DNA of 64,000 nt, from contig NZ_CP141944.1 of NCBI RefSeq assembly GCF_035658495.1, positions 1,204,001 through 1,268,000 on the forward strand. Direction: 5' to 3'. A model generated the notes under the pieces. The model made no database searches and was not told where the DNA came from. It saw only the letters and a program-made list of their open reading frames with translations. Shown here piece after piece: positions 15,546 through 39,633 of this stretch. A program made the translations under genes and the position numbers. Position 1 is the stretch's first letter; the number at the start of each line of letters is the position of its first letter. This DNA comes from Novosphingobium sp. RL4. GTDB lineage: Bacteria; Pseudomonadota; Alphaproteobacteria; Sphingomonadales; Sphingomonadaceae.

Positions 15546-16091
15546 TCAGGCCTTGACCTTGTTCTGGAAGCTCTTGCGCAGCTTCATCAGCTTGGGCGGA
15601 ATGACCGCGAGGCAATAGGGGTTCCGCTGGCCTTCACCGTCCCAGTATTCCTGATGGTAGTCTTCGGCCGGATACCATTCGTCGTTCTGCCTGCCGTCGG
15701 CGAAACCTTCGATCGTGGTCACGACCTTGCCGCCGTTGTCCTCGTTCGAACGGGCGATGGCGGCTTCTGCCTCGGCAGCCTGCGCATCGTCGAGCGGGAA
15801 GATCGCCGAGCGGTACTGCGTGCCCACGTCGTTGCCCTGGCGGTTCAGCTGCGTCGGGTCATGGGTGCCCATGAACACGTCGAGCAGATCGCCGTAGGAC
15901 AGGACCGAAGGGTCATAGTTCACGCGGATCGCTTCGGCATGGCCGGTGTCGCCGCCGCAGACCTGCTTGTAGGTCGGGCTCGGCACGGTGCCGCCGATAT
16001 AGCCGCTTTCCACGGAGCTCACGCCGATGACGTCGCGGAACACCGCTTCGGTGCACCAGAAGCACCCGCCTGCCACGATTGCCGTTTCCAT
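15546..16091 (-). CDS. msrA: Peptide-methionine (S)-S-oxide reductase
   Basis: 181-residue cytoplasmic repair enzyme that reduces the S epimer of methionine sulfoxide using thioredoxin. The N-terminal METAIVAGGCFWCTEAVF contains the invariant GCFWC with the catalytic Cys at residue 10. Other family features are visible: GVSSVESGYIGG, GHAEAIRVNYDPSVLSYGDL, MGTHDPTQLNRQGNDVGTQY and YHQEYWDGEGQRNPYC. The length is normal and the start is unambiguous. It appears monocistronic. Confidence 0.97.
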   Translation of the reverse strand: METAIVAGGCFWCTEAVFRDVIGVSSVESGYIGGTVPSPTYKQVCGGDTGHAEAIRVNYDPSVLSYGDLLDVFMGTHDPTQLNRQGNDVGTQYRSAIFPLDDAQAAEAEAAIARSNEDNGGKVVTTIEGFADGRQNDEWYPAEDYHQEYWDGEGQRNPYCLAVIPPKLMKLRKSFQNKVKA

Positions 16092-17994: not shown

Positions 17995-18504
17995 TTGGCC
18001 AAGCATCAGTATCTCGTCGCGCTCGGCTCCAACATGCGCCACCATCGCCACGGCGGGCCTCGCAAGGTGCTCGCCGCGGCGCTCTCGGCGCTGGGCCGGG
18101 GCAAGATGGAAGTGCTCGCCGCCTCCCCGGTGATCGAGACCGCGCCGCTCGGCCCCTCGCGCCGCCGCTACGCCAACGGCGTTGCGCTGGTGCGCAGCAA
18201 GCGCGAGCCTGACGAGATGCTGCACAAATTGCGTAAAATCGAGCACAAGTTCGGCCGCCGCCGCCTCGGTCGGGCCTGGGGGGCGCGCGTGCTGGACCTT
18301 GATCTCGTGCTCTGGAACGGCGGCCCCTGGGCGGGCGGAGAGGGCGAGGAAAGCCTTGTCCTGCCTCACCCCGCCTTCCGCGCGCGTGATTTCGTGCTCG
18401 GCCCGGCCCGGCGAATTGCCGGCACCTGGCGTGACCCTTTGACAGGTCTTACGATTAATCAGCTTCATGCCCGCTTGACCAAGCCTCGCCCTGCCCTTAG
18501 GTGA
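17995..18504 (+). CDS. folK: HPPK, folate biosynthesis pyrophosphokinase
   Basis: 169-residue 2-amino-4-hydroxy-6-hydroxymethyldihydropteridine pyrophosphokinase, which transfers pyrophosphate from ATP to the pterin. Motifs: YLVALGSNM at the N-terminus, APLGPSRRRYANGVALV, RAWGARVLDLDLVLW (the R-x-x-D-x-D-L core) and LVLPHPAFRARDFVL. The start is probably TTG 17995, placed after a GGGGGAGGGC ribosome-binding site; no ATG is better placed. It is followed by tRNA-Lys. Confidence 0.92.
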   Translation: MAKHQYLVALGSNMRHHRHGGPRKVLAAALSALGRGKMEVLAASPVIETAPLGPSRRRYANGVALVRSKREPDEMLHKLRKIEHKFGRRRLGRAWGARVLDLDLVLWNGGPWAGGEGEESLVLPHPAFRARDFVLGPARRIAGTWRDPLTGLTINQLHARLTKPRPALR

Positions 18505-18544
18505 CCCCTTCCGCAGCCGCTTCGCGTGCTGCGCCCGGTAACGG

Positions 18545-18620
18545 GGGCCCTTAGCTCAGTCGGTAGAGCAACTGACTTTTAATCAGTAGGTCGCTGGTTC
18601 GAACCCAGCAGGGCTCACCA
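18545..18620 (+). tRNA. tRNA-Lys (UUU)
   Basis: 76-nt cloverleaf with encoded CCA. Acceptor GGGCCCT pairs with AGGGCTC. The D-loop is TAGCTCAGTCGGTAGAGC, the anticodon arm CTGA-CTTTTAA-TCAG has anticodon TTT, and the T-arm is CTGG-TTCGAAC-CCAG. Its last 45 bp are the left attachment site of the island. The gene is intact, so integration regenerated the 3' end. Confidence 0.97.
18576..18620 (+). repeat. attL, 45-bp direct repeat in tRNA-Lys 3' end
   Basis: Begins CTTTTAATCAGTAGGTCGCT and ends at CCA. It is identical to 36416-36460 and then the flanks diverge. It covers the anticodon loop to the 3' end, a usual target for tyrosine integrases. Confidence 0.93.
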
Positions 18621-18650
18621 TCTTTTCCAACAGTTTCGGCAAAGGTGAGC

Positions 18651-18671
18651 GGGAAGCGTTGGGCGCTTCCC
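18651..18671 (+). terminator. Hairpin after tRNA-Lys
   Basis: GGGAAGCG-TTGGG-CGCTTCCC, followed 12 nt later by CCCCTTTTT. It is possibly a terminator at the island's left end. The rest of 18621-18900 has no gene I can support. Confidence 0.4.
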
Positions 18672-18900
18672 ACCGTATTCCCCTTTTTCTTGCAGAGCTG
18701 TCGGGCCGGCGGCATTGGTCCGCTGGATGACAGCTCCGCTCCCCTCAGTAGCCAAATGAGGTCTTAACGAACGGCCGGTTTCGGTAAGCGGCCTAGCCGC
18801 CGCGAACTCCCTTTTTGGGCGTGTCCGAAGTGCCCATATAAACGGGGAGAATGCGTGCGACATAGTGGTCAGCAAGCGGCATGGTGTCCATATCTGTCCA

Positions 18901-20019
18901 ATGACGACGATCTTTCTCGACGAGTCCGGCTATACCGGCGACGATCTCCTCAACCCCGAGCAGCCGTTTTTCGTGGTAGCCTCGTCCGTGATCGGAGATG
19001 CTGAGGCGGCCGAGCTCCTGCGGCGTTGCTTCCCCCGCTACCAAGGCGCGGAATTCAAGTTTTCCAACATTTGGAAGCGCGCTGGCCACCGCGATGGTCT
19101 ACGCACGCTTGCCCGCGAAATCCCAATGCTACAGGATCAAGTTTACCTTTGGATCATCGACAAGCGCTTCTGCTTGCTCACCAAAATGCTCGATTACTTG
19201 ATAGAGCCGATGGTCTACGACGCGGGGCGGGACTTTTATGCCGGGGGTTACGCCCAGCGCTTCATGAATTCCGCGCATCGCGATATCTTGCGCTATGGCT
19301 CGGACGAACTTTACAGCAGTTCGGTCACGGCATGGGACACTTTCGCTCGCGCGCCCGCCATGGCAACGATTGAACCGTTGCGGGCGCTGCTGGATGAGGT
19401 CTCTGGGACTGCCTCGTCGCCGCTCCGCGACCTATATCGTGCGGCACGGACGGGTCTCGACGACTTCCTTGCGTCTAATGAGCGCTTGGAGGATTTCAGC
19501 GACTCCAGTGAGATCCAGCTCACATCGGTTTTTTCCTCCGTTATTTGGTGGCGGCAGCACCGGCCGGAGGACTTCGACCTCGTCCACGACGAGTCGAGCA
19601 ATTTCCTGCGCCAGCGCGATATGTGGGGGACCATGCTTCGCGATGATTTTGTGTCGCCGCCGATGCCGCAAGGCAACGGCACGCTGGTCGAGTTTCCGCT
19701 ACGGGTCAGGTCTACGGTGTCGGCGTCGTCGCACGCATCGCCAGCGATCCAGCTCTGCGACGTTCTCGCGGGGCTCGGCGCGAAGTTCGCGCCAGCGTTG
19801 CAGGGGCGCGAGAGTGATCCGTTCCTTCTCGAGCTCATTGAACTGGGTGCTGGCGCCCTAACCTACAGCGGCGTGATGCCGCACGACGCGTATGCCGAGG
19901 GTCCGCCGCCACGACGCGACGGCCCAGACATGGTTGACCGTATGGTCGAACTGCTCGACCCGCAACTCACGAGTATGCTGGTCAAGCGGACGGGCTTTGA
20001 GGCGGGGCGGCCCGATTAA
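18901..20019 (+). CDS. DUF3800 domain protein
   Basis: 372 residues from ATG 18901. The first residues MTTIFLDESGYTGDDL carry the DUF3800 hallmark, an Asp in a first strand followed by ESGxxG. Further family features are DLVHDESSNFLRQRD and AIQLCDVLAGLGAKFAPALQ near the C-terminus. DUF3800 proteins have a predicted RNase H-like fold and are often found in mobile and defence-rich DNA; the biochemical role is unproven. A GTG 12 codons upstream is an alternative start. It is convergent with the reverse transcriptase gene, 42 bp apart, so the two might be one locus. Confidence 0.85.
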   Translation: MTTIFLDESGYTGDDLLNPEQPFFVVASSVIGDAEAAELLRRCFPRYQGAEFKFSNIWKRAGHRDGLRTLAREIPMLQDQVYLWIIDKRFCLLTKMLDYLIEPMVYDAGRDFYAGGYAQRFMNSAHRDILRYGSDELYSSSVTAWDTFARAPAMATIEPLRALLDEVSGTASSPLRDLYRAARTGLDDFLASNERLEDFSDSSEIQLTSVFSSVIWWRQHRPEDFDLVHDESSNFLRQRDMWGTMLRDDFVSPPMPQGNGTLVEFPLRVRSTVSASSHASPAIQLCDVLAGLGAKFAPALQGRESDPFLLELIELGAGALTYSGVMPHDAYAEGPPPRRDGPDMVDRMVELLDPQLTSMLVKRTGFEAGRPD

Positions 20020-20061
20020 GCGCGGGCCATTGCTTAGTGCCTATGCACCGAGAGCGGGATG

Positions 20062-21351
20062 CTAACTGCTAGGGTAGGCAAAGGGGGTTCGGTCAATCGC
20101 TGTGAGTTCGGCCAGGCCGAGCAGTTTTCTGTGATGGCTGGCGGGCACAGCGTTCCTCACAGATGAATAGCTGCCCAAAAAATCGGCTAAGCGTTGGTCG
20201 ATCTGCTTGTCGATGCCGGCAAAAACATGTTTGTCGTTACAAAACCAGTAGTGCTTTCCCCAGCCTTCGATCATGCCGTCAATACGTTTGAGTGTAGCTA
20301 CCAACGATTGCTCGCTCGGTAACGGGTTTCCGTTCTTTAGGCCAATCATCGCTTTCTGCGTCTGATGCAGGACGGTGCCGACAGAATCGATGAAGCGTTT
20401 TCGCGCCTTTTCGGCGGGCCGGATCAAGCCGGGGCAGATTGAGATGCCAAGAAAATCAAAACCCAATTCCACCGGAGACCCGCCTTTCGAACTTTTCTCG
20501 GGAGATAACTCCATGCCGAGCTCTTCGAGCAGGCCGATGGATTTCCGCAAGCGAGCGTTAGCTGCCCTCTGTGTGGGCGCCATGATGATGAAGTCGTCGA
20601 TATAGCGGATGCAGCGACAATCGCCGTCATTCATAGCTTTGTCGAAGCTCGCCAAGGCGATGTTTCCGAGTAGCGGTGATAATGAATTGCCTTGGGCCAC
20701 GCCGATTTCCTCGGTTGGGAACTGTCCGGCAGCGTTCTTCAGCGTCGCGATGTTTTCGAGTTCCACCTTTATAGCTGCGCGCACAAATGCCAGGAACTTG
20801 GGGTCATCGCCTACAGCTTCGCCGATGACCTGCACAACACGATCTTTAGAAATGCGGGTGAAAAACGCGCGAATATCGGCAGTGGCGATGAACTTGGCGC
20901 CTTGCCCGATTTGGTCGAGCACAGCTTTGATCGCTGCGGGCACTGCGGAGATTTCCTCACTCCGACCCTGTTCGCCGCGCTTTCGGAGGCTACGTATCCC
21001 GCCGAAACTGTAGGGCGTTTTGACGAACGGCTTCAACGCGTCGATGTCGATCAACACATTGAGGAGGGCTCTTTGGACGATCCGGCTTGCTACAGGCGCA
21101 AGTACAATTGGGCGAATCTTGCCGGTCGGTCGTCCATTCCCATCGAGTTTGGGGATGGGCACGCCTTTGGCTTTTTCGAACCTGAAACTTCCTCGACTGA
21201 GCTTGCCTTGGAGTGATCGAAGGTTGCGCTGAGCGTCCTCAGCAAAGCGCTCTAGCTCCAACCGAACTAGCGGCGATTTTGATGCGCGCCCATTCTGCTG
21301 GATGACGCGCCATGCGGCCTCGAGGTTGTCGAGTTTCCGAATGGCTCTCAT
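20062..21351 (-). CDS. Reverse transcriptase, unclassified (retron/DRT/group II-like)
   Basis: 429-residue RNA-directed DNA polymerase. Palm motifs are clear: KIRPIVLAPVASRIVQRALL, YSFGGIRSLR, ATADIRAFFTRISKD (catalytic Asp), GVAQGNSLSPLLGNIALASF, the active site CRCIRYIDDFIIMA, LSPEKSSKGG and LGFDFLGISICPG. The C-terminal thumb-like region has RIDGMIEGWGKHYWFCND. There is no maturase, endonuclease or nitrilase domain, and no intron structure was noticed. I cannot assign it to a retron, DRT (UG) or Abi clade by eye. Context in an island next to DUF3800 and near hsdRMS suggests a defence RT (inference). Two small overlapping-type ORFs with a 132-bp duplication lie directly upstream. Confidence 0.88.
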   Translation of the reverse strand: MRAIRKLDNLEAAWRVIQQNGRASKSPLVRLELERFAEDAQRNLRSLQGKLSRGSFRFEKAKGVPIPKLDGNGRPTGKIRPIVLAPVASRIVQRALLNVLIDIDALKPFVKTPYSFGGIRSLRKRGEQGRSEEISAVPAAIKAVLDQIGQGAKFIATADIRAFFTRISKDRVVQVIGEAVGDDPKFLAFVRAAIKVELENIATLKNAAGQFPTEEIGVAQGNSLSPLLGNIALASFDKAMNDGDCRCIRYIDDFIIMAPTQRAANARLRKSIGLLEELGMELSPEKSSKGGSPVELGFDFLGISICPGLIRPAEKARKRFIDSVGTVLHQTQKAMIGLKNGNPLPSEQSLVATLKRIDGMIEGWGKHYWFCNDKHVFAGIDKQIDQRLADFLGSYSSVRNAVPASHHRKLLGLAELTAIDRTPFAYPSS

Positions 21352-21393
21352 GAGGTCGGACGCAGGCAGTCTGTAGGGTCCTGTCAGTTCGCC

Positions 21394-21603
21394 TTACCCG
21401 TCCGACGGGGAGCTGACATCCGCAGCGGTACCTTTCGGCCCGTGCCGCACAATCGAGGTCGCGACCTTCGCCGTGGCCTCGCCGTAGCAGGTTCGCTTGG
21501 TCCCGACGGTGATCCCGCCTGCCAGGCTACCGGCTAGAGCCAGTCCGATCAGGAAGCGCGAGGCGCCCCGACCGGCCCGTGCCGAGTTGGCACGTTTTTG
21601 CAT
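21394..21603 (-). CDS. Small membrane-type ORF upstream of the RT (copy 1)
   Basis: 69 codons. A basic N-terminus (MQKRANSARAGRGASRF) precedes a hydrophobic segment (LIGLALAGSLAGGITVG), then TKRTCYGEATAKVATSIVRH. The last 43 codons before the stop lie in a 132-bp block identical to that in the neighbouring 98-codon ORF; the end SSPSDG is unique. GAGGAGAT lies 15-22 bp before the ATG, rather far for a ribosome-binding site. The stop is 42 bp before the RT start. It may be a real small protein or a remnant of a duplicated gene; no function is recognised. Confidence 0.4.
   Translation of the reverse strand: MQKRANSARAGRGASRFLIGLALAGSLAGGITVGTKRTCYGEATAKVATSIVRHGPKGTAADVSSPSDG
21413..21544. repeat. 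132-bp direct repeat, copy 1
   Basis: Identical over 132 bp to 21782-21913 (period 369 bp, divisible by 3, same reading frame in both ORFs). There is no difference between the copies, so no adenine-specific variation. Confidence 0.95.
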
Positions 21604-21624
21604 GTGTGGCGCATGTTCATCTCC

Positions 21625-21921
21625 TCAGCGAAAGCCTAACCTTTTTGGTCGCTTAGGCAAGCGCGAAGGGCGACTTGCGCCCGGCTCCCGCCCGCCCTTC
21701 AGAATAATGCCACTAGCCGCCTGACAGGTACCCTGAATGGTAAAGGTTGCGGCTAACGTAACTTCCTCGGACGAGTAGGTCCTGACATCCGCAGCGGTAC
21801 CTTTCGGCCCGTGCCGCACAATCGAGGTCGCGACCTTCGCCGTGGCCTCGCCGTAGCAGGTTCGCTTGGTCCCGACGGTGATCCCGCCTGCCAGGCTACC
21901 GGCTAGAGCCAGTGCGAACAT
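21625..21921 (-). CDS. Small ORF upstream of the RT (copy 2)
   Basis: 98 codons. It starts MFALALAGSLAGGITVG, runs through the same 132-bp block as copy 1 (TKRTCYGEATAKVATSIVRH), then has its own tail VRTYSSEEVTLAATFTIQGT and a basic end (SRLPKRPKRLGFR). Its stop is in the same frame as, and 21 nt before, the 69-codon ORF. The N-terminus looks cut compared with copy 1, and copy 1 looks cut at the C-terminus compared with this one, so both may derive from a single gene of roughly 125 codons. Function unknown. Confidence 0.4.
   Translation of the reverse strand: MFALALAGSLAGGITVGTKRTCYGEATAKVATSIVRHGPKGTAADVRTYSSEEVTLAATFTIQGTCQAASGIILKGGREPGASRPSRLPKRPKRLGFR
21782..21913. repeat. 132-bp direct repeat, copy 2
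   Basis: Second exact copy of 21413-21544. The first flanking bases still match partly (CCGATCA versus GCGAACA), suggesting the homology once extended further. Confidence 0.95.
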
Positions 21922-22055
21922 CTTGGCAACAAGACGGCGTCACGGTCAAGTAGGCTGCTAAAAAGATCGCCATATTTCCACGGAAGTCGCGAACACTCGA
22001 TTGATCATCTGCGCGCGCCTTGTGCGGATGCGCAATCGAGCGCGGAGTTCCCGAC

Positions 22056-22697
22056 ATGAAGATAACCAGCCTTGCCGCCCACAAGGGCGGCGTGGGCAAG
22101 ACGATGTTGACCGCCTCGTTGGCGGTGCTGGCACAGCAGGACTGCGAGGACGAAGAAGGCGAGCTCGGCAAGGGCAAGGTCGCCATGTTCGACCTAGACC
22201 CGCAGGGCAGCCTCACAGCATGGTACAACGCCCGCCAGCGCGACGGCCCGATCCTTGTCGCTCCCATGCTGCGCACGCTGGCTCTCAGGCTCTACGCTCT
22301 CAACCGCAAGGGTGTGCGATATGTCTTCATCGACACGCCGCCCGGCCACAGCGAGTACATCGCCAAGGCCATGAACGTGGCGCATCTCGTTGTCGTTCCG
22401 GTTCGCCCCGGGGAGCTCGATTACAAGGCTGTCCAACGAACGATGCAGACGGTGCTTTTCTGGGAGGAGCCGTATCTGGCCCTACCCAATGGCGGACTGT
22501 TTCGCAGCCGTGCAATGGGGGAACTTGTCCGTCGATTGGATGCGGACGGTCAGGACAGGCTGCCTCCGGTCCATCACCGTGTGGACCTGCCGCTTCGCAG
22601 CGGTCTGACCCTTACGGAAACGCAGCCGAACTCGGCCGGAGCACAGGAACTTCGGAACGTCTGGGCTAAGATCCGTGAGCGATTGGGAGAACGATGA
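22056..22697 (+). CDS. parA: ParA-family partition ATPase
   Basis: 213-residue MinD/ParA ATPase. The N-terminus has the deviant Walker A (SLAAHKGGVGKTMLTASLAV) and then MFDLDPQGSLTAWYN and YVFIDTPPGHSEYI. It is short and without an N-terminal HTH, matching type Ib plasmid partition ATPases. The start ATG 22056 follows GGAG at a normal distance. Its last four bases overlap the start of the RHH gene. In an integrated island such a pair may stabilise the excised form (inference). Confidence 0.9.
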   Translation: MKITSLAAHKGGVGKTMLTASLAVLAQQDCEDEEGELGKGKVAMFDLDPQGSLTAWYNARQRDGPILVAPMLRTLALRLYALNRKGVRYVFIDTPPGHSEYIAKAMNVAHLVVVPVRPGELDYKAVQRTMQTVLFWEEPYLALPNGGLFRSRAMGELVRRLDADGQDRLPPVHHRVDLPLRSGLTLTETQPNSAGAQELRNVWAKIRERLGER

Positions 22698-22918
22698 TGG
22701 ATGCTGGTTTTGAACCGTTATCGGGGCGCGGGCATGTGCGGCCGATTGCGGAACCGCTCGCGCCGCCGAGGCGCATTTTTGGAGGGCCGCGCCGTCGCAT
22801 CAGCGCGACGCTCGACCAGCCGCGTTACGTGGCCCTGCGCACACTCGCTGCAACCCACGGCCTGAGCGGCGATGACTTGGTGGTCATTGCGATCGACAGG
22901 CTGCTGGCTGGCGCCTGA
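22694..22918 (+). CDS. Ribbon-helix-helix partner of ParA
   Basis: 74 residues, overlapping the ParA stop by 4 bp. A disordered basic N-terminus (LAPPRRIFGGPRRR) is followed by a ribbon-helix-helix pattern: RISATLDQPRYVALRTLAAT then HGLSGDDLVVIAIDRLLA. In type Ib partition systems the small ParB/ParG-like protein both binds the centromere and stimulates ParA, with a mobile N-terminal Arg finger. That assignment is inferred from context and fold pattern. Confidence 0.7.
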   Translation: MMDAGFEPLSGRGHVRPIAEPLAPPRRIFGGPRRRISATLDQPRYVALRTLAATHGLSGDDLVVIAIDRLLAGA

Positions 22919-22954
22919 TCGCAGCGCACAATTTTTTGCTGGAAGGAAGCAGAG

Positions 22955-22992
22955 GTATGTCCCGATCACCCTTGACGGTGATCGGGACATAC
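22955..22992. terminator. Perfect 16-bp stem hairpin between convergent genes
   Basis: GTATGTCCCGATCACC, loop CTTGAC, then GGTGATCGGGACATAC followed by TTTTG on the plus strand. It sits between the RHH gene and the leftward HTH gene, so it is probably a bidirectional terminator. The size and perfection of the palindrome also allow a protein-binding site, for example a partition centromere. Confidence 0.6.
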
Positions 22993-23023
22993 TTTTGCCT
23001 CCAGTCGGCGGCGGCGCCGGGGC

Positions 23024-23377
23024 CTACTGCAACGTGTTGCTCTTGATGCGCTCGGCAACGAAGGTGTTCAGGTCTACGGCGCGGTAGCGCACCGTGCCGG
23101 GGGACAGCTTCACGAAGCGCGGCCCTTCGCCGATCGAGCGCCAGCGTTCGAGGGTTTTGATGCCAACGCCCAGAACCTCGGCGGTCTGTGTCGGGGTGAG
23201 CAGGGCGGGAACAGTCACGGCCGGATCGGCGATGAGCGGCGCGAGCGCGGCGTCCAAAACCTCGGGGCGGAGTTGCGTCGATGTTTCGTTGGGGGCAGGG
23301 CGCGGTTCGGGGCGGTCGGCCCTGACTGAGGGTTGTACGGCGCGAAGCGAGCGGCGCAGGTTCGGTTTCAGCATCAT
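23024..23377 (-). CDS. AlpA/excisionase-like HTH protein
   Basis: 117 residues. The start ATG 23377 has AGGAACC just upstream. The first half is Pro/Arg-rich. The C-terminal half is a MerR-type winged HTH of the AlpA/excisionase kind: LLTPTQTAEVLGVGIKTLER then WRSIGEGPRFVKL and VRYRAVDLNTFVAER. In integrative elements such proteins direct excision or regulate the integrase; here it lies 112 bp downstream of the integrase stop in the same direction. A longer in-frame start (23422) lacks a ribosome-binding site. Confidence 0.8.
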   Translation of the reverse strand: MMLKPNLRRSLRAVQPSVRADRPEPRPAPNETSTQLRPEVLDAALAPLIADPAVTVPALLTPTQTAEVLGVGIKTLERWRSIGEGPRFVKLSPGTVRYRAVDLNTFVAERIKSNTLQ

Positions 23378-23489
23378 GGTTCCTCGGTGTCGTGCGGAAA
23401 AAAGAAAACGGCCCCGGGACAAGTCCGCAGGGCCGCAGGTTGGCTGATCGTGTGGGACGGTTTGCCTCCTGGCTCACCAGATTGGATGC

Positions 23490-24635
23490 TCACATCAGGA
23501 CGGGCACAGCCTCGTTGGCCGCCTCGATGAGCCTTGCGGGTGCGAGGTGCGCGTAGCGCATGGTCATGCTGATCTGGCTATGGCCGAGCAGGGTGCCAAC
23601 CTCGTGGAGGCTGCGGCCCTTGCCAACCAGCGTCGAGGCGAAGGTGTGGCGCAGGTCATGGATGCGCAGGCCCGCGTCCAGTCCGGCGAGCTTCTTGGCC
23701 CGACGCCATGCCTTGGTGGGATCACCGAGCGCCTTGTCCGGGTCGGCACCGGGAAAGATGAATAGCCCCGGTGCCTGAGGGCGCTGGCGTTCGAGGATGG
23801 CGAGCGCGGCATCCGAAAGCGGGATGTGGCGCCGCTTGCCGCTCTTGGACACGGGGACGGTCCAGAGGCGCCGTTCGTAGTCGATGTGTTCCCACTTGGC
23901 GCCCAGCGCCTCGCCGCGCCGCGCGCCGGTCGCAGCGAGGAAGGCGAGGGCGTGGGCGGCCGATTTGTTGGGCTCATCGCGCAACGCCATGAAAAGCGCG
24001 CGGAGTTCGGTTTCGGTGAGGAAGCGTTCGCGATTGTGTTCGCGCCGCATCTCGGCGTGTTGGGCCGGGTTGCGGCCCTCATAGGCCTCCCAGCGCAGCG
24101 CGAGGTTGAAGACCCGCCGCACGAAGGCGACGTAGCGGTTGACGGTGGCGTTGGACAGGCCAGCGCGGCGCAGGCGGTCCTGCAGGTCGGCGACGTCCTG
24201 CGGTCGGATTTCGTCCAGGGAGCGGTTGCCCCAGAGAGCCTTGAGGCGCAGGCGGAAGAAGCCTTCGTGATCGGCGTAGGAGCGCAGCCTTTCCTTGGCA
24301 AAAGGCAGGTAACGCTCCTCGACGAACTTGGCGAAGGTGGGGACCGCCCGCAGGCGGTCACGGTCCCCGGCGGGGTCCCCGCCGAGCGAGGCCTCGGCGC
24401 GTAGCTCCTGAGCCCGGCGTCGCGCCTGCTCCACGGTGATGTCGCCCAGCTTGCCAAGGCGCACCTCGCGTTGGCGATTGCGGGCGTCGCGGTAGCGCAC
24501 GTAGAAGGTGACGGCCCCGGAGGTCCGGACCTCCATGATGAAGCCGGTGAGCTTGTCGTCGAACAGGCGCAGCTTTGCCTTCCCGTCCGGCACGGCCGGC
24601 GGGTTCGTCGCAAGCCCGCGCGTGATTGCGGGCAT
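23490..24635 (-). CDS. Tyrosine site-specific integrase
   Basis: 381-residue phage-type integrase. It has an N-terminal arm-binding domain of the DUF4102 kind (LRLFDDKLTGFIMEVRTSGA, YRDARNRQREVRLGKLGDIT), a SAM-like core-binding domain (about residues 110-190), and a catalytic domain with R in LAATGARRGEAL, HxxR in IHDLRHTFAS, and H plus the nucleophilic Tyr in LGHSQISMTMRYAHL. All catalytic residues are present. It is the likely enzyme for the tRNA-Lys att sites, though it lies well inside the island. Confidence 0.95.
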   Translation of the reverse strand: MPAITRGLATNPPAVPDGKAKLRLFDDKLTGFIMEVRTSGAVTFYVRYRDARNRQREVRLGKLGDITVEQARRRAQELRAEASLGGDPAGDRDRLRAVPTFAKFVEERYLPFAKERLRSYADHEGFFRLRLKALWGNRSLDEIRPQDVADLQDRLRRAGLSNATVNRYVAFVRRVFNLALRWEAYEGRNPAQHAEMRREHNRERFLTETELRALFMALRDEPNKSAAHALAFLAATGARRGEALGAKWEHIDYERRLWTVPVSKSGKRRHIPLSDAALAILERQRPQAPGLFIFPGADPDKALGDPTKAWRRAKKLAGLDAGLRIHDLRHTFASTLVGKGRSLHEVGTLLGHSQISMTMRYAHLAPARLIEAANEAVPVLM

Positions 24636-24681
24636 TTTTGGTTCTCCGATGTAGGATTATCGGCGGCGGGCGATCATCGCG

Positions 24682-24711
24682 GGCCGCAATGGGCTATTGC
24701 GGGCCTTTTTT
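24682..24711 (+). terminator. Hairpin plus T6 upstream of integrase
   Basis: GGCCGCAAT-GGGCT-ATTGCGGGCC with one bulged G, followed by TTTTTT on the plus strand. No plus-strand gene ends here, so it may insulate the integrase promoter or be chance. Confidence 0.3.
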
Positions 24712-24760
24712 CCGCAAAAGGGCCGGAACAGTACGTGCGCGCGCGTCTGTGCGCGCTGCT

Positions 24761-24928
24761 CTAGCGCCAGTTCAGGTTGACCACGACCTTCACCAGATTG
24801 ATGTCGGTGCCGGCTTTACCCGGCACCGGCACTTTGACGGTTGCTGCCGCGCTCTTGGTCCCGGATGCGCTTGTAGTCTTGCGGACACTAAGGATGTCCC
24901 CCAGCAGTCCCATCGCCAGCGGGTTCAT
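24761..24928 (-). CDS. Small hypothetical protein, coupled to upstream gene
   Basis: 55 residues from ATG 24928: MNPLAMGLLGDILSVRKTTS, a Ser/Ala/Thr middle, and VPGKAGTDINLVKVVVNLNW at the end. Its start overlaps the stop of the 144-residue gene (ATGA at 24925-24928), which is the main evidence that it is real. It is not recognised. It lies between that gene and the integrase, all on the minus strand. Confidence 0.55.
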   Translation of the reverse strand: MNPLAMGLLGDILSVRKTTSASGTKSAAATVKVPVPGKAGTDINLVKVVVNLNWR

Positions 24929-25359
24929 GCGTGGCCTCCGAACGGAAAGGCGCTATCGTCCATTTCGGCCTTCAGGCGAATGCTCTCGGCAACGTGGGGG
25001 ACGCGATCAGCTATCGAGCGCGGGACATAGAATTTCGCGCCGCCGTTGGTGCTGTCGATGGCGCAAAATACGGCGTAGGCTTTGTCGCATCGCCACTCCG
25101 CAACGTCGAACCACCCGGATGCGGCTTGGAGAAGGGAAAGGCGTTGGTCCTCATCCTCGTCGAGCGAGCGCACCTGTACGAGGTCCTCGACAGTCTCCAC
25201 GAGGAAAACCGGGCTGTCGATGAGTAGGGTGAAGCTCACCTGCTCGATGTCGGGATGGTCCCAGTGGTCCGGGAATTCCGCGATAATGGCGCGCATCTGC
25301 GCGCAGGCTTCGGCGGGCAGGTAAGCCGCCATGGTGGCAAGGGTATCGAAGGATTTCAT
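24925..25359 (-). CDS. Hypothetical island protein
   Basis: 144 residues from ATG 25359, chosen because GGAGAACATC precedes it; the longer frame has no such site. Acidic, beginning MKSFDTLATMAAYLPAEACA, with VFLVETVEDLVQVRSLDEDE, WFDVAEWRCDKAYAVFCAID and a C-terminus KFYVPRSIADRVPHVAESI. I do not recognise the family. It is coupled by a 4-bp overlap to the 55-residue protein, and the integrase lies downstream. The 338 bp upstream (25360-25697) hold no supported gene and are probably a divergent promoter region. Confidence 0.7.
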   Translation of the reverse strand: MKSFDTLATMAAYLPAEACAQMRAIIAEFPDHWDHPDIEQVSFTLLIDSPVFLVETVEDLVQVRSLDEDEDQRLSLLQAASGWFDVAEWRCDKAYAVFCAIDSTNGGAKFYVPRSIADRVPHVAESIRLKAEMDDSAFPFGGHA

Positions 25360-25697
25360 GATGTTCTCCGCAGGTGAATGCGGACGAATCATATGAGAGC
25401 GACTGGACAGGCAGATTCGGTAGCTGGATCTCTTGAAGGATGGGCTCGGTTCAACTTCTGTTGCAAAATTGCACCAAACAATCCTCACGGGCAGGGAAAA
25501 CGCCATTCAGCAAAAAATTTTCCGGAGCCGGCCCCAAAATTGCGGGCGGGTCGGGGCACGCGAAGGATGCCTCTCAGCCTTGGGTGCCGGGAAACCCCTC
25601 GTCCAGCACGAATGCAAGTGCTGTTGGCAGCCTAGAAAATCTGAGTAGTAGGAGAACCCTCTCCGCAAGAAGGCGGTAAAACAGAGAGGGATTTAGA

Positions 25698-26285
25698 ATG
25701 ATCTTTCATCAAGGTTGTGCCAATGATCTTACCAACTCGGAGCTGATGTTTCCCGATGATCGCGATGATTTCGCCTTCATTAACGAAGGTTTTCCTTGTG
25801 TCTTCTTCTCACTCAACTGGGACGTTCGCGTCCAACGTTCGCGCGATGACTTTGAGGCGCAGTTTCCAACTTCGTTCAAAAACAGCTTCCCGAATGACGA
25901 TCATGGCTACGAAGAATGGCTTGATGGAATGATTGCCGATGATGACGCGGGTGGGTTTGCCTATGCCAAATTCTGTCACAAGTTTGTGATCCCGCCGAAG
26001 ATTGCGCTTCCGGGCGTCAAGTACATTCCGTTGGACCCGAGGTGCCCTCAACTGTGCGATGGACCTGACATGGGCTATGATTTTGCCATCGAATGGGGGG
26101 ACTTTACCCCCGAAGAAATTCGACGATTAGAAAAACTCGATGAGAAAGATATCTCCGGCTTCATTCCGAAGTATCGACTGCCGTGGTATGGTGGAGAAGC
26201 CCTGACCTGGGACAGCCATTGGGGCGCGCTTTTCGTTCATATGATCAAAAACTGGGCCTTAACGTCGGCTATGTTGGGCATATGA
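25698..26285 (+). CDS. Unknown acidic protein, first of coupled pair
   Basis: 195 residues from ATG 25698 (AGAGGG 7 bp upstream). Strongly acidic and aromatic, starting MIFHQGCANDLTNSELMFPD, with FPNDDHGYEEWLDGMIADDD and IEWGDFTPEEIRRLEKLDEK. There is no signal peptide and no membrane helix. I recognise no family. Base composition is visibly lower in GC than in the housekeeping genes. Its stop overlaps the next start by 4 bp, so the two products are probably made together and act together. The acidity would allow a DNA-mimic or antitoxin role, but that is speculation. Confidence 0.7.
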   Translation: MIFHQGCANDLTNSELMFPDDRDDFAFINEGFPCVFFSLNWDVRVQRSRDDFEAQFPTSFKNSFPNDDHGYEEWLDGMIADDDAGGFAYAKFCHKFVIPPKIALPGVKYIPLDPRCPQLCDGPDMGYDFAIEWGDFTPEEIRRLEKLDEKDISGFIPKYRLPWYGGEALTWDSHWGALFVHMIKNWALTSAMLGI

Positions 26286-27571
26286 TTGACGATTTCGGTG
26301 CTGGCTTCCTTCGCCAGCACCGACTGACATTCGAGATATCAATGGATAGTAACTCTACAATCGTCGAGCATGGTTCGGCCGAGGGCGGCGATCTTGTGCT
26401 GTTCGACCGCGTGGAGCTAGGCGTGGAATTTCGCTTTGCTGGCGCGGGCATCGATCCTTCACAGAGTTTCAGGACCAAACTCGCCTCAAACGGGATTTAC
26501 CGAGCCAATGCGCGTGATCTCAGCAAGGGGTGCGTCACTCTTCGCTTGCCGATGGAAAATGCCGATGGCGTCGAAGTCGGAAAGGCAACCGCGGAGCTAT
26601 ATCTCGCGGTCAGGCCCGATGGCGTCCTGATCGTGACGCGCCGCAGTTCGGTGCGCTTCAACCTGCTCCTGCCGCTGCGCGAGGGGTTTGCCGTGCCAGA
26701 CAACCTCGTCAGCTCGGATCGGAAGCGTAACTTGGTAGGGCCCACGGAAGCGGTGCCTGACGTGGCATGCGAGCATCAGTTGGAGTTCGCCCGGCAGGTC
26801 GTCAGCAAGCTTTGCGCGGCCATCGCTTCCGGGCTGCCGCCTTGTGCTGTGCTGCTCGGGAGCGAGATGTGGCTACGCGCGGCGGAGGTCTGCCACGACA
26901 TGGCCTGCGAAGACCCGATAGCGATTACCCACGCCGCTACCCGTTCGCCAGTCGCCGGCACGAGTATCGCCGAGCATGACTTTTACCGCACTCGGCTCTA
27001 CCAGAACCGCCTCCCGGTGGCCCATTGGCTGCCCAAGGAGAACGGGGAGGCCTACAAGATCTATCCCAAAGCATCCCAGCTCTTGCGGGTCGAGCTCTCG
27101 TGCGGATCGCGGGACGACATCGCATCGGTCATCGGCCGAGGCAGCGTCGAATGTACGGACGATGGGATCGAGGAAATCTTCGTTGAATTCTACAACTCCG
27201 CAGGAGCGCTATGCTGCGTGGCGCTGGATCACGTCAGGGTACTTGCGCAAGGCGTGTACTCCGCCGCCGATCTCGCCCTTAAATTGCAGCCGCTCCTTCT
27301 CGTCGCTGGCCGACAGTCGTTGGCTGAGGGCTATCGTCCAAATGAGGTCGCGGCGGCAGAAGCCAAGCGCGTGTATGATGAGATCATCCGTAGCGGCGTC
27401 GCGTCTGCAAAGGGCCTGCGCAAAGGCATGAAGGTCCGTCAGGTCCTGGACCAACTCTGTGGGCAGGATGGCCCACTCAGTACAGGAAATCCTCAAGGGA
27501 TTTACGTGCTTAAGCCCGAATACGGTCGAGCTGGATTGCTCTTGGATGTCGGGGAAGATTTCGGTTTCTGA
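26282..27571 (+). CDS. Unknown protein, second of coupled pair
   Basis: 429 residues from ATG 26282 (ATGA overlap with the gene before). The N-terminus MIDDFGAGFLRQHRLTFEIS leads into a beta-rich region (VELGVEFRFAGAGIDPSQSF, TLRLPMENADGVEVG). The middle is helical (EFARQVVSKLCAAIASGLPP), followed by IKxYPKASQLLRVELS-like sequence and a C-terminal helical part (AEAKRVYDEIIRSGVASAKG, LRKGMKVRQVLDQL). There is no signal peptide and no recognised catalytic motif. It is convergent with the restriction operon and overlaps the broken DUF6998 gene at its 3' end. Confidence 0.72.
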   Translation: MIDDFGAGFLRQHRLTFEISMDSNSTIVEHGSAEGGDLVLFDRVELGVEFRFAGAGIDPSQSFRTKLASNGIYRANARDLSKGCVTLRLPMENADGVEVGKATAELYLAVRPDGVLIVTRRSSVRFNLLLPLREGFAVPDNLVSSDRKRNLVGPTEAVPDVACEHQLEFARQVVSKLCAAIASGLPPCAVLLGSEMWLRAAEVCHDMACEDPIAITHAATRSPVAGTSIAEHDFYRTRLYQNRLPVAHWLPKENGEAYKIYPKASQLLRVELSCGSRDDIASVIGRGSVECTDDGIEEIFVEFYNSAGALCCVALDHVRVLAQGVYSAADLALKLQPLLLVAGRQSLAEGYRPNEVAAAEAKRVYDEIIRSGVASAKGLRKGMKVRQVLDQLCGQDGPLSTGNPQGIYVLKPEYGRAGLLLDVGEDFGF

Positions 27572-27935
27572 GAAAGTGAGAAGGACTGAAGGGAAGAAAG
27601 GAAAAAAGTAGAGAAGGGGATGCCGTCAATTTCGCGGGACGAATTGTCCTGTAGGAGCGGGGAATGCGCCCTTGCCTAGTCGATAAGAGGGGCCGCGGAC
27701 GACGACGAGCACCGTCAGGTGTGCTGGCGGCGGCGCACAGCGCGTCGTGTGCCATGGTCGACGCGGGATTCAGGGTGAGGACAAACATATAGGCGGCGAT
27801 GACCTCTCCGATGCTGCCGACGAGGTGCCCGTCGAGCGTGAACTTGCGGCCGGGGAACAGGGTTTCAAGGGGCTCGGCGGAACCGTAGAGGGAGTCGAGC
27901 AGGTTTCGAACCTCTGCCCAGTCGACTTCAGGCAT
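27510..27935 (-). pseudogene. Truncated DUF6998 gene at end of hsd operon
   Basis: Starts 2 bp after the hsdS stop. Residues 1 to about 70 are good DUF6998 family sequence (MPEVDWAEVRNLLDSLYG, GRKFTLDGHLVGSIGEVIAA, LNPASTMAHDAL). After that the frame turns into Arg/Pro-rich sequence unlike the family. Another frame at the join reads HLTVLVVVRGPSY, resembling a later part of the family (typically HLIVL), so an internal deletion or frameshift is likely. DUF6998 genes often sit at the end of type I restriction operons; the role is unknown. Confidence 0.65.
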
Positions 27936-27937
27936 CG

Positions 27938-29611
27938 TTATGCGAGTTCCAGTTCCCGCGCTTCCGCCGGTTCGAGCGCTTCGTGCAGGATAGCTTCGAG
28001 TAGGCGCTGGCGAGTTTCGTCGCCGGTGGCAAGGCTGGCTTCGAGCCGGCCGCACAGCGCCATGAGTTCATTCGCTTTGGCGACGATGCGGCGCTGTTCG
28101 GCGAGTGGGGGCAAGGGGATCGGCATGCGGCGAAAATCGCCGACATTAACACCTTGTAGTGCGACACCCTTGGTCTCCCCTGCCATCCAAGATTGGCAGA
28201 ATGGAGCGTCAATGGCCAATCGCACGAAATGCCTGTCTACCAAGCTCGTGATTGGAAATCTCAACACATGCTGCGTGATGTTTCCACCGGCAAGTTCAGG
28301 CGGGACAAATGCCGTTTTGCCGATTGTTCCATCTTTCGAAATCAGCAGATCGCCAGGGATTAGGGATGTCTTCCCAAATTTCTTAGCCCGCTGAGGGTCA
28401 CACTTTGGCAAGCATTCTACTGAAATATATCCAGTTTTCATTTCTGTTACGCGTACTGTGGGGATGCCATGCTCGACCCACACGGGCTTAAGAATGCCGT
28501 ATGTCACCGTTTCATTGGGCCTAACCAGTGACTCTACTGATGCCCAAACCCATCCGGTCGGCAGCGAAAACGGGCAATCGGAATCGTCCGCCAAGTCAGG
28601 TAAGTGAACGTTTTCTCTTTGCTTGACCCAAGGCTCTGACAAAATGTCGCGGAGCAGGAGAGATGCCGGCTCATGAGCTTTATCCTGCTCCACCAGCTTG
28701 CCACGCACGGCGAGGTTCAGAATCGTCTGGCGCAGTTGCTTGATCTGGTCGGCGCGGGTGGTGAGGGCGGGGAGGTTATCGAGCGCGAAGCGGGCGTGAG
28801 TGGTGAAGGTGGCCAGATCGGGAACGGGTGCGTTCAGGCGGGCGAGGCTGGCCGCTGTCATGCGGTCGCGGGCGGCTTCCCGCTCCTTGCGCGCCTCTTC
28901 CAGCCGGTCGCACAGCGCCATGAGTTCGTCGACCGTCCTCTGCACGGCAGGGCAGACAAGTGGCACGGGAACTTCCGCGATGCGGCCGATGGACAGAGTC
29001 ACGTTGGCACTGCCGGTCATGCGCGCCACCAGCAACTCGTCTTTGAACGCTGAAAGGTATTCAAAGAGGAAACGAGCGGACACCTGTGCTGGGTCGTATG
29101 GCAACACCGCTGCCAGAATGGAGCCCAGTGCGAATTTTCCGTCCTGATAATGCAAGCGGTTAATACTGGCGTGCCCGTGCCCAGTTGAGGAAACAAGCGG
29201 GATGATCGCCGCTGCGCCTTCGAAATCGAAATGATCGCAGTTGCCACGTTCTGCTGCCGTGACGACAAGTGGGAACGGGCCTGAGGGGGCATCCTTGATG
29301 CCAGTAAGTCCCTTCTCGATGCGCGCAACAGTGCCAAGGGAGGCGAAGCAACTGGCATCTTGGAACGATGCAGGAAGGTCTTCCTCGGTGACAGGCGCTA
29401 GCTTCTTCGGTTTAGGAATCGCGCGCAGTGCTGCTAGCTTTGTCTTTACTTCCTCGACTTTGGCTAGGATGTCGCTTGGGTTCGATGTGGAATCCACCAA
29501 GCCGAGTTTTCCGGTGATGGCCAGCGCGACGACAATTTGGCGCAATCGCGCGACGCATTCCGGAGCATCGCCGATTTTTGCAAACAGGTGGGCAAGTGCG
29601 TCCTGTTTCAT
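27938..29611 (-). CDS. hsdS: Type I restriction specificity subunit HsdS
   Basis: 557 residues with two target-recognition domains, each followed by a coiled conserved region. TRD1 spans about residues 90-220 (EKGLTGIKDAPSGPFPLVVT; AEVPVPLVCPAVQRTVDELM) and the spacer helix follows (ALCDRLEEARKEREAARDRM). TRD2 spans about residues 340-500 (FSLPTGWVWASVESLVRPNE; MPIPLPPLAEQRRIVAKANE), followed by a matching helix (LMALCGRLEASLATGDETRQ). The start overlaps the hsdM stop by 4 bp. An intact two-part target is implied. Confidence 0.95.
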   Translation of the reverse strand: MKQDALAHLFAKIGDAPECVARLRQIVVALAITGKLGLVDSTSNPSDILAKVEEVKTKLAALRAIPKPKKLAPVTEEDLPASFQDASCFASLGTVARIEKGLTGIKDAPSGPFPLVVTAAERGNCDHFDFEGAAAIIPLVSSTGHGHASINRLHYQDGKFALGSILAAVLPYDPAQVSARFLFEYLSAFKDELLVARMTGSANVTLSIGRIAEVPVPLVCPAVQRTVDELMALCDRLEEARKEREAARDRMTAASLARLNAPVPDLATFTTHARFALDNLPALTTRADQIKQLRQTILNLAVRGKLVEQDKAHEPASLLLRDILSEPWVKQRENVHLPDLADDSDCPFSLPTGWVWASVESLVRPNETVTYGILKPVWVEHGIPTVRVTEMKTGYISVECLPKCDPQRAKKFGKTSLIPGDLLISKDGTIGKTAFVPPELAGGNITQHVLRFPITSLVDRHFVRLAIDAPFCQSWMAGETKGVALQGVNVGDFRRMPIPLPPLAEQRRIVAKANELMALCGRLEASLATGDETRQRLLEAILHEALEPAEARELELA

Positions 29612-31065
29612 CGTGCCAGCGCCTCGGCAAGAATGGCCCTCAACTGGTCACGCAGGTTTGCCGTTTCTTCTTCTACCGTGTCGAGTCGCTGGAGCAGTTC
29701 CTCGGGGTCGCCATGGTCTACTGCCTCGCTGTGCGGGTTCTTGATGTCGAGATTGTAGCCGCGGGTCTTGATGTCCTCGATGCTGACCTTCCACGCCTGC
29801 GGGCCTTCGACGCGCCCTTCGCGGTTGGCCCCGCCCCACCAGTCCATGCAAGGCTGGAAATGCTCCAGCCGGATAGGCTTGTTCATGGAGTAGGCCTTCC
29901 GGCCGGCAGGCACCTGATGCTCGAAGTACCAGACCTCCTTGGTCGGCTCGCCCTTTTCGAAGAAGAGCAGGTTGGTGCCAATGGAGGCATAGGGCCTGAA
30001 GACGCTGTTGGGCAGGCGGACAATGGTGTGCAGGTTGCACTCTTCCAGGAGATGCTCCTTCAAGCGTGTTTTTACGCCTTCGCCGAAGAGCGAGCCGTCG
30101 GGAAGGACCACGGCGGCGACACCGCCCTTGCGCAGCAGACGGATGATGAGGGCCAGGAACAGGTCAGCTGTCTCGCGCGTGCGGAACTGGGGCGGGAAGT
30201 TGGACTCGATGCCGTCTTCCTCCTTGCCGCCGAAGGGCGGGTTGGAGAGGACCACGTCGACGCGGTCCTTCTGCTCCCAGCTGATGTAGGGGCGGGCCAG
30301 CGTGTTGTCGTGCCGGACGAAGCTGGCATCCTCCACGCCGTGCAGCAGCATGTTGGTGACGCAGAGCATGTGCGGCAGCGGCTTCTTTTCGACAGCGCGC
30401 AGGCCCGATTGCATGAGCGCCTCGTCCTCTGGGCGCTTCACATGCTTGTCGCGCATGTGGCGGATCGAGCAGGTGAGGAAGCCGCCGGTACCGCAGGCGG
30501 GGTCGAACAGGACCTCACCGGGCTTTGGATCGATTCGATCTACCATGAAGGCGGTGACGGCGCGGGGCGTGTAGTACTCGCCCGAGTTGCCGGCCGATTG
30601 GAGGTCGTTCAGAAGCTGCTCGTAGACGTCGCCGAAATGCTGGCGCTCGGACAGGTCGTTGAAGTCGACATCGTTGATCTTGTTGACCACCTGCCGCAGC
30701 AGTTGGCCGGACTTCATGTAGTTGAAGGCATCCTCGAACACGTCGCGCACGACGACGCGGCGGTCACCCTTCTGGCCGGTGGGCTGAAGGCCCTTCATGG
30801 CCGGGAAGAGCTCGTCGTTGACAAAGGCGAGCAGGTCTTCGCCGGTCAGGCCCTCAGGATCGGCAGCCCATGTGCGCCACTGGAAATTCTCCGGCACCGG
30901 CGACTGATAGCCGGCTCGCATGAGTTCCAGCTCCTGATCCTGATCGTCGATGATCTTCAGGAAGAACAGCCAGCAGAGCTGGCTGATGCGCTGGGCGTCG
31001 CCGTCGACGCCGCTGTCCTTGCGCATGATGTCCTGGATGGATTTGACGAGAGTGCGGACGGACAT
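29608..31065 (-). CDS. hsdM: Type I restriction DNA methyltransferase HsdM
   Basis: 485-residue N6-adenine methyltransferase. It has an N-terminal helical domain (about residues 1-140), SAM motif FDPACGTGGFLTCS, catalytic motif VLSNPPFGGKEEDG (NPPF) and VVLPDGSLFGEGVKTRLKEH. The C-terminal part contains PTKEVWYFEHQVPAGRKAYS and a terminal coiled region (ETANLRDQLRAILAEALAR). Second gene of the operon: hsdR stops 3 bp upstream and hsdS overlaps downstream. All motifs are intact, so modification should be functional. Confidence 0.97.
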   Translation of the reverse strand: MSVRTLVKSIQDIMRKDSGVDGDAQRISQLCWLFFLKIIDDQDQELELMRAGYQSPVPENFQWRTWAADPEGLTGEDLLAFVNDELFPAMKGLQPTGQKGDRRVVVRDVFEDAFNYMKSGQLLRQVVNKINDVDFNDLSERQHFGDVYEQLLNDLQSAGNSGEYYTPRAVTAFMVDRIDPKPGEVLFDPACGTGGFLTCSIRHMRDKHVKRPEDEALMQSGLRAVEKKPLPHMLCVTNMLLHGVEDASFVRHDNTLARPYISWEQKDRVDVVLSNPPFGGKEEDGIESNFPPQFRTRETADLFLALIIRLLRKGGVAAVVLPDGSLFGEGVKTRLKEHLLEECNLHTIVRLPNSVFRPYASIGTNLLFFEKGEPTKEVWYFEHQVPAGRKAYSMNKPIRLEHFQPCMDWWGGANREGRVEGPQAWKVSIEDIKTRGYNLDIKNPHSEAVDHGDPEELLQRLDTVEEETANLRDQLRAILAEALAR

Positions 31066-31068
31066 GGA

Positions 31069-36545: not shown

Positions 36546-37787
36546 CTAGATCCGTCCCAGGGACTGCACGATGCGCACGAGGTCGGGGCCTATGTGGTCG
36601 TAGAAGGCGTAAAGGCCCGAGCAGAGGTAGTTGAGCCCCGTTTCGCCGCTGCGTGTGCGGAGAAGGCGGTTCTTGGGGCATTCGCCGTAGCATAGCCGCA
36701 GATATTCGCAGCTGCGGCACTTGCCGGGCAGGCTGGCGCTCTTGTTGCGGGCGAACTGTTCCTGCCGGGGCGAAAAGGCGAGGTTGCCGAGGTGGGTCTG
36801 GTTGATGTTGCCGATGCGGTACTCGGGATAGACGAAGTGGTCGCACGAGAACACTTCGCCGTCATGCTCCACCGCCAGCGCCTTGCCGCAGAACTCGGCC
36901 TGGGTACACATTTGCGCCGGCATTCCCGCCGCCTGGGCCACTGCGGTTTCGAACAGGTTGACGTGGACGCGGCCGATATCGGTCGCGAACCATTCGTCCC
37001 ATACGGCGCTCAGGAAGCGGCCATAGTCGTCGGGATCGACCGACCAGTCCGTGACGATCGAATCGGCAGCACCCGGCCGGGCGCGCGCGGTGCCTTCCAC
37101 AGGCGGTTCCGCGAGCAGGGCGGGCGCTTCGCTGCGAAAGCGGCGCGGTTCCACGGCTGGAGTGAACTGCACGCGCCAGGTGCCAATCTCGTCGACGAGG
37201 AAGCGATAGACATCGCGCGGGTGCAGCGCGTTCTCGCGATTGACGACGCACAGGGCCGCGAAGGGAATGTCGGCCTCGCGCAGCATCGTGGCAGCCGCCA
37301 TGACGAGATCGAACGTCGGCTTGCCGTTCTTGGTGACGCGGAAACGGTCATGAAGGTGCTTCGGACCGTCGATCGACAGCCCGACGTGGAAACCGTTGGC
37401 CTTGAGGAAGCTGATCCACTTGGCATCGAGCAGCAGGCCGTTCGTCTGAAGGTCGTTTTCGATCCGCTGGCCGGGCTTGCGGTACTTGTGCTGGAGCGCG
37501 ACTACCTCTTCGAAGAAGGCGAGTCCCATGAGCGTGGGCTCGCCGCCCTGCCACGAGAAGACGACCTCCTCGCCCGTTTGCGCCTCGATATACTGGCGGA
37601 CGTGCTGCTCGAGCGCGGCGCTGTTCATGCGGGCGCGCGGGCGGTGGTCTAGCAGGTCGGTCTTGTGGAGGTAGAAGCAATAGGCACAGTCGATGTTGCA
37701 CTCCGCCCCCCCCGGCTTGACCATGGCGTGGAAGCGATAGGTCGATCCGGGGATCAGGGCGTTACGATCAAGCGTCGGATTGTTCAT
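36546..37787 (-). CDS. Anaerobic-type sulfatase maturase (radical SAM)
   Basis: 413-residue radical-SAM/SPASM enzyme that oxidises the active-site Ser or Cys of a sulfatase to formylglycine. The [4Fe-4S]-SAM motif is C30-N-I-D-C34-A-Y-C37 (ECNIDCAYCFYLHKTD). The family region VVFSWQGGEPTLMGLAFFEE, ending of helix QRIENDLQTNGLLLD and the C-terminal cysteine clusters (MCTQAEFCGKALAVEHDG; GKCRSCEYLRLCYGECPKNR) are all present. It lies 48 bp downstream of a Ser-type sulfatase gene in the same direction, its expected substrate. The enzyme is oxygen-independent, despite the anaerobic label. Confidence 0.93.
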   Translation of the reverse strand: MNNPTLDRNALIPGSTYRFHAMVKPGGAECNIDCAYCFYLHKTDLLDHRPRARMNSAALEQHVRQYIEAQTGEEVVFSWQGGEPTLMGLAFFEEVVALQHKYRKPGQRIENDLQTNGLLLDAKWISFLKANGFHVGLSIDGPKHLHDRFRVTKNGKPTFDLVMAAATMLREADIPFAALCVVNRENALHPRDVYRFLVDEIGTWRVQFTPAVEPRRFRSEAPALLAEPPVEGTARARPGAADSIVTDWSVDPDDYGRFLSAVWDEWFATDIGRVHVNLFETAVAQAAGMPAQMCTQAEFCGKALAVEHDGEVFSCDHFVYPEYRIGNINQTHLGNLAFSPRQEQFARNKSASLPGKCRSCEYLRLCYGECPKNRLLRTRSGETGLNYLCSGLYAFYDHIGPDLVRIVQSLGRI

Positions 37788-39425: not shown

Positions 39426-39633
39426 CGCGTAATGCCCTGTTGCTTGAGCCTGAGCGCTGTCCGGCGAACCTGCCCACCGGCTGCGCTCATCTCCAACCCA
39501 TGAAGATTGCAATGATTTTGTCCGGGGCGGGGGCTGTCAGCTATCGGGGAAAACCCCGAGCCCGGTGCGCATTTTGCCTGAGTTCCCGCGGTTCTCCCTC
39601 AGGGGAGTGGCGCGGCGGCGGCCGGTGCCGTGT

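Follow-up and report, generated by a model that had tools for sequence, protein, structure and literature searches.

The window, i.e., the entire 64,000-nt stretch of Novosphingobium sp. RL4 DNA that was analyzed, contains what is likely an integrated stretch at 18545-33522, comprising a tRNA-Lys gene, a DUF3800 gene, a reverse transcriptase (RT) gene, a helix-turn-helix gene, an integrase gene and genes of type I restriction. A leader precedes the RT gene, and its order in full is P1-R1-C-P2-N-R2-tail-RT, with all parts on the minus strand. The features of the stretch are the following.

18545-18620: tRNA-Lys
18865-20019: DUF3800 gene
20062..21351, minus strand: ORF of a G2L4 RT, 429 aa, with YIDD and AQGNSLSP motifs
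21352..21412, minus strand: tail, between R2 and the RT, holding the 3' strands of helices H1 (21395-21405) and H2 (21375-21387)
21394-21603, minus strand: ORF2, N followed by R2
21413..21544, minus strand: R2, the RT-proximal copy of a 132-nt repeat, from a repeat search
21545..21603, minus strand: N, with the start ATGCAAAAACGTGCC at 21589-21603, running into R2 in an open frame
21625-21921, minus strand: ORF1, R1 followed by C
21628..21781, minus strand: C, which prolongs the R1 frame by 153 nt up to a stop at 21625-21627 and also holds the 5' strands of H1 (21767-21777) and H2 (21721-21734)
21633..21660, minus strand: P2, a promoter-like TTGCCT-16-TAGGCT with AAAAAGG in the spacer, taken as a lead
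21782..21913, minus strand: R1, the RT-distal copy of the 132-nt repeat, from the same search
21920..21949, minus strand: P1, a promoter-like TTGACC-18-CAAGAT ending 6 nt before R1, taken as a lead
23024-23422: helix-turn-helix gene
23490-24635: integrase
27938-33522: type I specificity, methylase and restriction genes

In the window, R1 and R2 are direct repeats that are identical at 132 of 132 positions with a spacing of 369, and a wider alignment of the repeat covers 159 nt at 93%. ORF1 and ORF2 read R in one common frame, and N encodes basic residues and a hydrophobic segment. The repeat and ORF coordinates bear out the initial annotation, which had described an exact 132-bp block shared in a common frame by two small ORFs in the order R-C-N-R.

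By sequence and profile comparison, the window RT, which had been considered unclassified, is a G2L4 (group II intron-like 4) RT. The G2L4 RT structure 9d5x was its top match among solved structures (196.1 bits over residues 6-416 vs. 67.8 bits for the next), and profile comparison with solved structures gave 363 for the G2L4 RT vs. 106.2 for the next. The window RT and most of its relatives have YIDD instead of YADD, described as a mark of the G2L4 group in sections of PMC4244168 and PMC12337344; the RTs of L002, L026, L027 and L029 have YVDD, and no YIDD or YVDD motif was found in the part of the L034 RT that was examined. YIDD and AQG are shared with the Pseudomonas aeruginosa G2L4 RT (PDB 9d5x, 9d4s; sections of PMC12337344 and PMC13015716), a member of the same family that these sections describe as a free-standing RT in end-joining repair. 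The RT3a region is present in the window RT and is 2 residues shorter than in 9d5x; R190 and R191 of the G2L4 RT3a plug align with K and N, and D182 with E. Relatives are ~4-7 residues longer at the start, and the window RT may itself start at a non-ATG codon lying a few codons upstream.

Several other assignments were rejected. A mobile group II intron was ruled out, as there was no sign of intron RNA nearby (no group II intron RNA match with E up to 1 in 18000-26000) and the NCBIfam model group_II_RT_mat scored 145.9 bits, below its cut-off of 300. The retron model St85 reached 33.4 bits vs. a cut-off of 235, and a DRT2 RT was discarded at 30.9 bits with Drt2 (curated cut-off 390) and 36.2 bits in PADLOC. 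In PADLOC, a generic RT model scored 126.6 bits, and UG17 matched in part, with 101.7 bits over residues 140-392. As for the possibility raised at the outset that the RT falls inside a well-known group with a standard partner, the group is indeed a named one, but the sections of the literature considered here name no leader, RNA partner or other native nucleic-acid partner, repeat or permuted gene for G2L4 RTs.

Among 8000 candidate proteins scored, 928 match the window RT at E ≤ 1e-10. From species genomes, one plasmid and viral contigs we obtained 34 distinct RT loci (L001 and L019 are the window; L020, L022, L023, L025 and L040 duplicate L004, L012, L014, L016 and L034). Of the 34, 23 have the two-R leader in front of the RT, seven (L005, L007, L008, L012, L014, L017 and L027) have one R, and four were not judged, either because contig ends cut them (L009, L029, L030) or because the RT is truncated (L016). 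The two-R layout persists with RTs down to 30% identity to the window RT, and in an RT tree of 30 rows, which predates and so leaves out L041-L044, it extends to deep branches while the one-R form appears as seven scattered tips. The exact identity over 132 bp could suggest that a duplication or the insertion of a circle happened recently and by chance in this one genome, but this distribution refutes such an event, and its probability is negligible. The layout is the form found across the family rather than the trace of a stray tandem duplication or an integrated 369-bp circle, and the expectation that the identity is recent or kept by selection holds for selection, or an active process, and fails for recency.

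Twenty-two leaders were measured; the two-R locus L015 was left out owing to a run of N inside R1. Within loci, 2854 of 2876 positions are identical in R1 and R2, a high internal identity that is partly by construction because the R segments were picked as best matches; place, length (119-138 nt) and copy spacing (346-382 nt) were not picked. R sequences from different loci have a median identity of 0.391. A ~130-bp repeat with one copy just upstream of an RT would also be expected of DGR-like template and variable repeats. We consider this very improbable, as the 22 mismatches over the 22 loci are of many types with no A bias to one copy, 13 loci having none, and as the RT, with its AQGNSLSP motif, belongs to G2L4 and not to the DGR family. 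L002 and L026 share a difference between R1 (CTGAC) and R2 (CAAAC) near the 5' edge of R, which indicates that whatever keeps the copies alike stops short of the edge.

The locus on a Pseudomonas aeruginosa plasmid (L032) has a two-R leader (132/132, spacing 376) and an RT that scores 402 bits against the crystallised G2L4 RT 9d5x. There is little sign of spread by plasmids or phages, with this one plasmid record only; no phage record matched with the L032 RT as query, and no plasmid DNA resembling the leader was found. Viral contigs gave two RT loci in one search and none in others, and no additional locus came from the families of G718 and G669.

Repeats of 130 bp recombine readily, and a DNA switch is one way to account for the leader. 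Homologous recombination between R1 and R2 would free a 369-bp circle with P2-N-R-C and leave P1-R-tail-RT, so that the gene would be joined at the DNA level and the RT would be a passenger or would be turned on by excision. The one-R loci look exactly like excision products, and in the pairs L006/L007 and L010/L014 almost identical R sequences occur once with the extra unit and once without it. However, all seven one-R loci come from draft assemblies, and the seven two-R loci in one- or two-contig records (the window, L021, L024, L031, L032, L034 and L035) have no one-R counterpart, so that some one-R loci may reflect assembly collapse. We therefore consider the one-R state to be either true loss by recombination or assembly collapse, and a DNA switch to be unlikely, also in view of the RNA structure discussed below. 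In L015 the assembly broke inside the repeat, a hint that drafts may collapse it. One-R locus L012 looks decayed: a TGA interrupts its RT, and its R frame meets a stop soon after it opens. There are longer repeats further upstream in this locus. In six of the seven one-R genomes, the exact 14-base N motif is absent elsewhere in the sequenced contigs that were searched; in the L017 genome the sole motif match precedes a cold-shock-like gene and looks like chance, and we rejected it as a copy of N kept elsewhere.

In each of the 22 leaders, exactly one of the three sense frames runs through N, R and 132 nt of C without a stop. The remaining two contain 86 and 124 stops over the 22 leaders, none of which has a stop-free antisense frame through N-R-C; after shuffling, a locus shows a free frame in 6.4% of cases. 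In a first count over 19 loci, the N frame had 0 stops in 75 nt of N, R and 135 nt of C, and the other two frames had 182. The C cut-off was moved from 135 to 132 nt because the stop of L042 sits right there; L041-L044 were found after the frame rule had been set, and three of them obey the original rule and L042 only the 132-nt cut. N adjoins only R2 and C adjoins only R1, so that N-R-C is one gene only after R1 and R2 have been joined. The implied ORF of ~115 codons supports the full ORF of about 125 codons that the initial annotation had considered as one possible ancestral form. Its first part encodes basic residues followed by a hydrophobic stretch, the maximum 15-residue hydropathy being at least 1.6 in 21 of 22 loci and in 2 of 44 other frames. 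Only in L004, L006, L011 and L015 does the frame stay free of stops around the whole unit.

An ordinary conserved protein was ruled out, since the codon positions show no third-position excess of substitutions (R 0.309/0.291/0.355, C 0.350/0.320/0.292). No clear uninterrupted N-R-C protein was found among 14 of the 19 relatives of the R-C ORF; database proteins of the R-C-N-R type have both R copies alike (P0122, P0125, P0129) or differing by one residue (P0121, P0124). We infer the N-R-C protein from openness and hydropathy and not from sequence conservation. The start ATGCAAAAACG has the codon AAG and not ATG in L015, the start motif is missing in L003, L031, L035, L041, L042 and L044, where other starts are used, and ribosome-site-like spacing often suits another frame better than the N frame. 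Taken together, the leader very probably stores a small gene as two permuted halves that overlap in R and must be joined.

Alternatively, R1-C and N-R2 could be separate small ORFs or an RNA switch that acts only as a regulator, with C-tail pairing setting RT translation and gene conversion keeping the R copies alike. In several loci N-R2 ends near or across the RT start, and a start codon lies just before R1 in some (the window, with ATG at -8, L010 and L013). We judge such a regulator to be improbable, and slightly more so than a DNA switch: 8 of the 18 loci analyzed for starts before R1 have none in frame, yet C is open in the N-R frame in every one of the 22 leaders, and there would be no need for 120-138 identical bases whose sequence varies between loci.

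Around N, the window shows further short elements. The TGCAAAAACGTGCC stretch plus hairpin at 21578-21603 resembles an intrinsic terminator on the plus strand (a 7-pair stem, then TTTTT), and 14 of its bases are unchanged in most relatives. A second short frame at 21540-21620, M-x-x-T-C-K-N-V-P, overlaps the N frame one base off and begins at a well-spaced ribosome-site-like stretch; the same interval has a slip-like site, CAAAAAC, before a hairpin.

Promoter candidates were compared in 18 loci. The distance from the best -10 box to the start of R1 is 3-10 nt in 11 of them and at most 17 nt in 16, suggesting that the start of R1 is about where transcription would begin. A P2-like box with AAAAAGG before N scores at least 6.5 in 14 of the 18 and is missing in L002, L026, L028 and L033. 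A stricter promoter scan of the window called neither P1 nor P2.

Between close kin, the leader varies less than the RT. For L011 vs. L013, the RT stands at 81% in protein and 26% at fourfold sites, and R at 124/125, C at 133/150 and N at 76/89; for L032 vs. L043, the figure for fourfold sites of the RT is 45% and R is 132/132. Two long-range helices, H1 and H2, pair C with the tail, in windows that were set after a first look at the data. H1 adjoins the ends of R1 and R2 and forms at least 7 pairs in every one of the 22 loci (mean score 25.4 vs. 15.0 with tails of other families), and H2 lies further in and occurs in 19 of 22 (mean 22.1 vs. 14.9), being absent in L003 and L035 and weak in L034. 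In ten related loci, 94.6% of helix cells pair, compared with 27-45% when slid. Seven pairs change on both sides (3.9 in shuffles, of which 6 of 500 reach seven). The covariation score of 0.289 exceeds that of all 500 shuffles (0.177 ± 0.016), and further pair types are at chance (18 vs. 17.6). A strongly folded R was rejected, as R alone is only slightly above chance over 18 loci (mean z -1.2 sense, -0.3 antisense).

The covarying C-tail helices call for a single RNA from C through the tail, and the crossing order H1-H2-H1'-H2' would make a pseudoknot if both helices form together. H1 and H2 end near the RT start, as they would if the leader were only a regulator. A DNA switch, by contrast, has no need for C-tail helices, which are present only in the unexcised RNA, and leaves unexplained both the start of R1 near the start of transcription and the constant presence of the RT. 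The fold and the frame together support the initial annotation where it considered the leader a small effector protein, a structured RNA or both, in that it appears to be effector and RNA at once.

The nearest parallel is DRT2 (UG2), in which, according to sections of PMC11100668 and PMC12039810, a permuted neo gene in a pseudoknotted RNA is built by a jumping RT. Both systems have a permuted gene beside the RT that is complete only once joined, a frame that is kept open rather than a sequence that is kept, and a pseudoknotted RNA. They differ in that the overlap here is ~130 nt and in DRT2 3 nt (ACA), and in that the ORF here is sense to the RNA and neo antisense; most units here end in a stop, many periods are not multiples of 3, and the promoter-like box is whole inside the unit. 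By analogy, the leader appears to work like DRT2 without being DRT2 by RT family. DRT10/UG17, the second best PADLOC model, also involves RNA-templated repeat synthesis, but DRT10 has a 9-nt repeat and a SLATT partner (sections of PMC12632851), and the window RT is closer to G2L4. No SLATT gene was found among the scanned neighbors in the window or among the best 25 of 58 flanking families. Retroviral R likewise is a repeat at the RNA 5' end that occurs again downstream and serves strong-stop strand transfer. The likeness is a parallel of mechanism only, as here there is no second R at the RNA 3' end, no integrase and no capsid.

We propose that the locus is probably a G2L4 retroelement in which a small gene is kept as two overlapping halves in permuted order and assembled by the RT. 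A repeat at the RNA 5' end that recurs inside is a classic aid to strand transfer. RNA from P1 would start at about R1 and be held by H1 and H2, and the RT would copy C and then R1 up to the RNA 5' end. The cDNA end, complementary to R, would shift to R2 by strand transfer, aided by the pseudoknot, and copying would proceed along N and P2 and enter C, in a single pass or repeatedly. Second-strand synthesis would then yield double-stranded DNA with P2-N-R-C, the whole gene, whose product would be a membrane-anchored or secreted protein of ~115 aa, an effector, perhaps against phage. Strand annealing is a known G2L4 RT activity in sections of PMC12337344, and we think it reasonably likely that the RT itself joins R1 and R2, via strand transfer at R. 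The chief points against this reading are the lack of a third-position excess, the weakness of the promoter calls in the window, and the seven one-R loci, whose RT is mostly intact.

On the sequence evidence, we lean slightly toward a second, independent type of RT-built gene, in which a G2L4 RT would jump from R1 to R2 and assemble the gene of a membrane effector. If true, RNA-templated assembly of hidden genes arose more than once, here in an RT line near group II introns. The leader would then be a concrete candidate for the natural substrate of an RT family with crystal structures. The frame test, which asks whether N, R and C share an open frame only once the repeats are joined, could find genes invisible to linear annotation.

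A role in defence is conceivable but tentative. The type I restriction genes in the window and the neighbors of L032 (integrase, recombinase and TIR-domain gene) are compatible with a defence island, which is no proof of defence. Among 87 ORFs flanking the window locus and 15 collection loci, no neighbor family was shared by more than two loci, as judged from the best 25 of 52 and the best 25 of 58 families.

Other features of the window include an inverted repeat at 22949-22998 with two 22-nt arms (91%) separated by 6 nt and, on the minus strand, a peptide methionine sulfoxide reductase gene at 15546-16091. A sulfatase (37836-39512) lies beside a radical SAM/SPASM protein (36546-37787), a pairing that resembles sulfatase maturation pairs.
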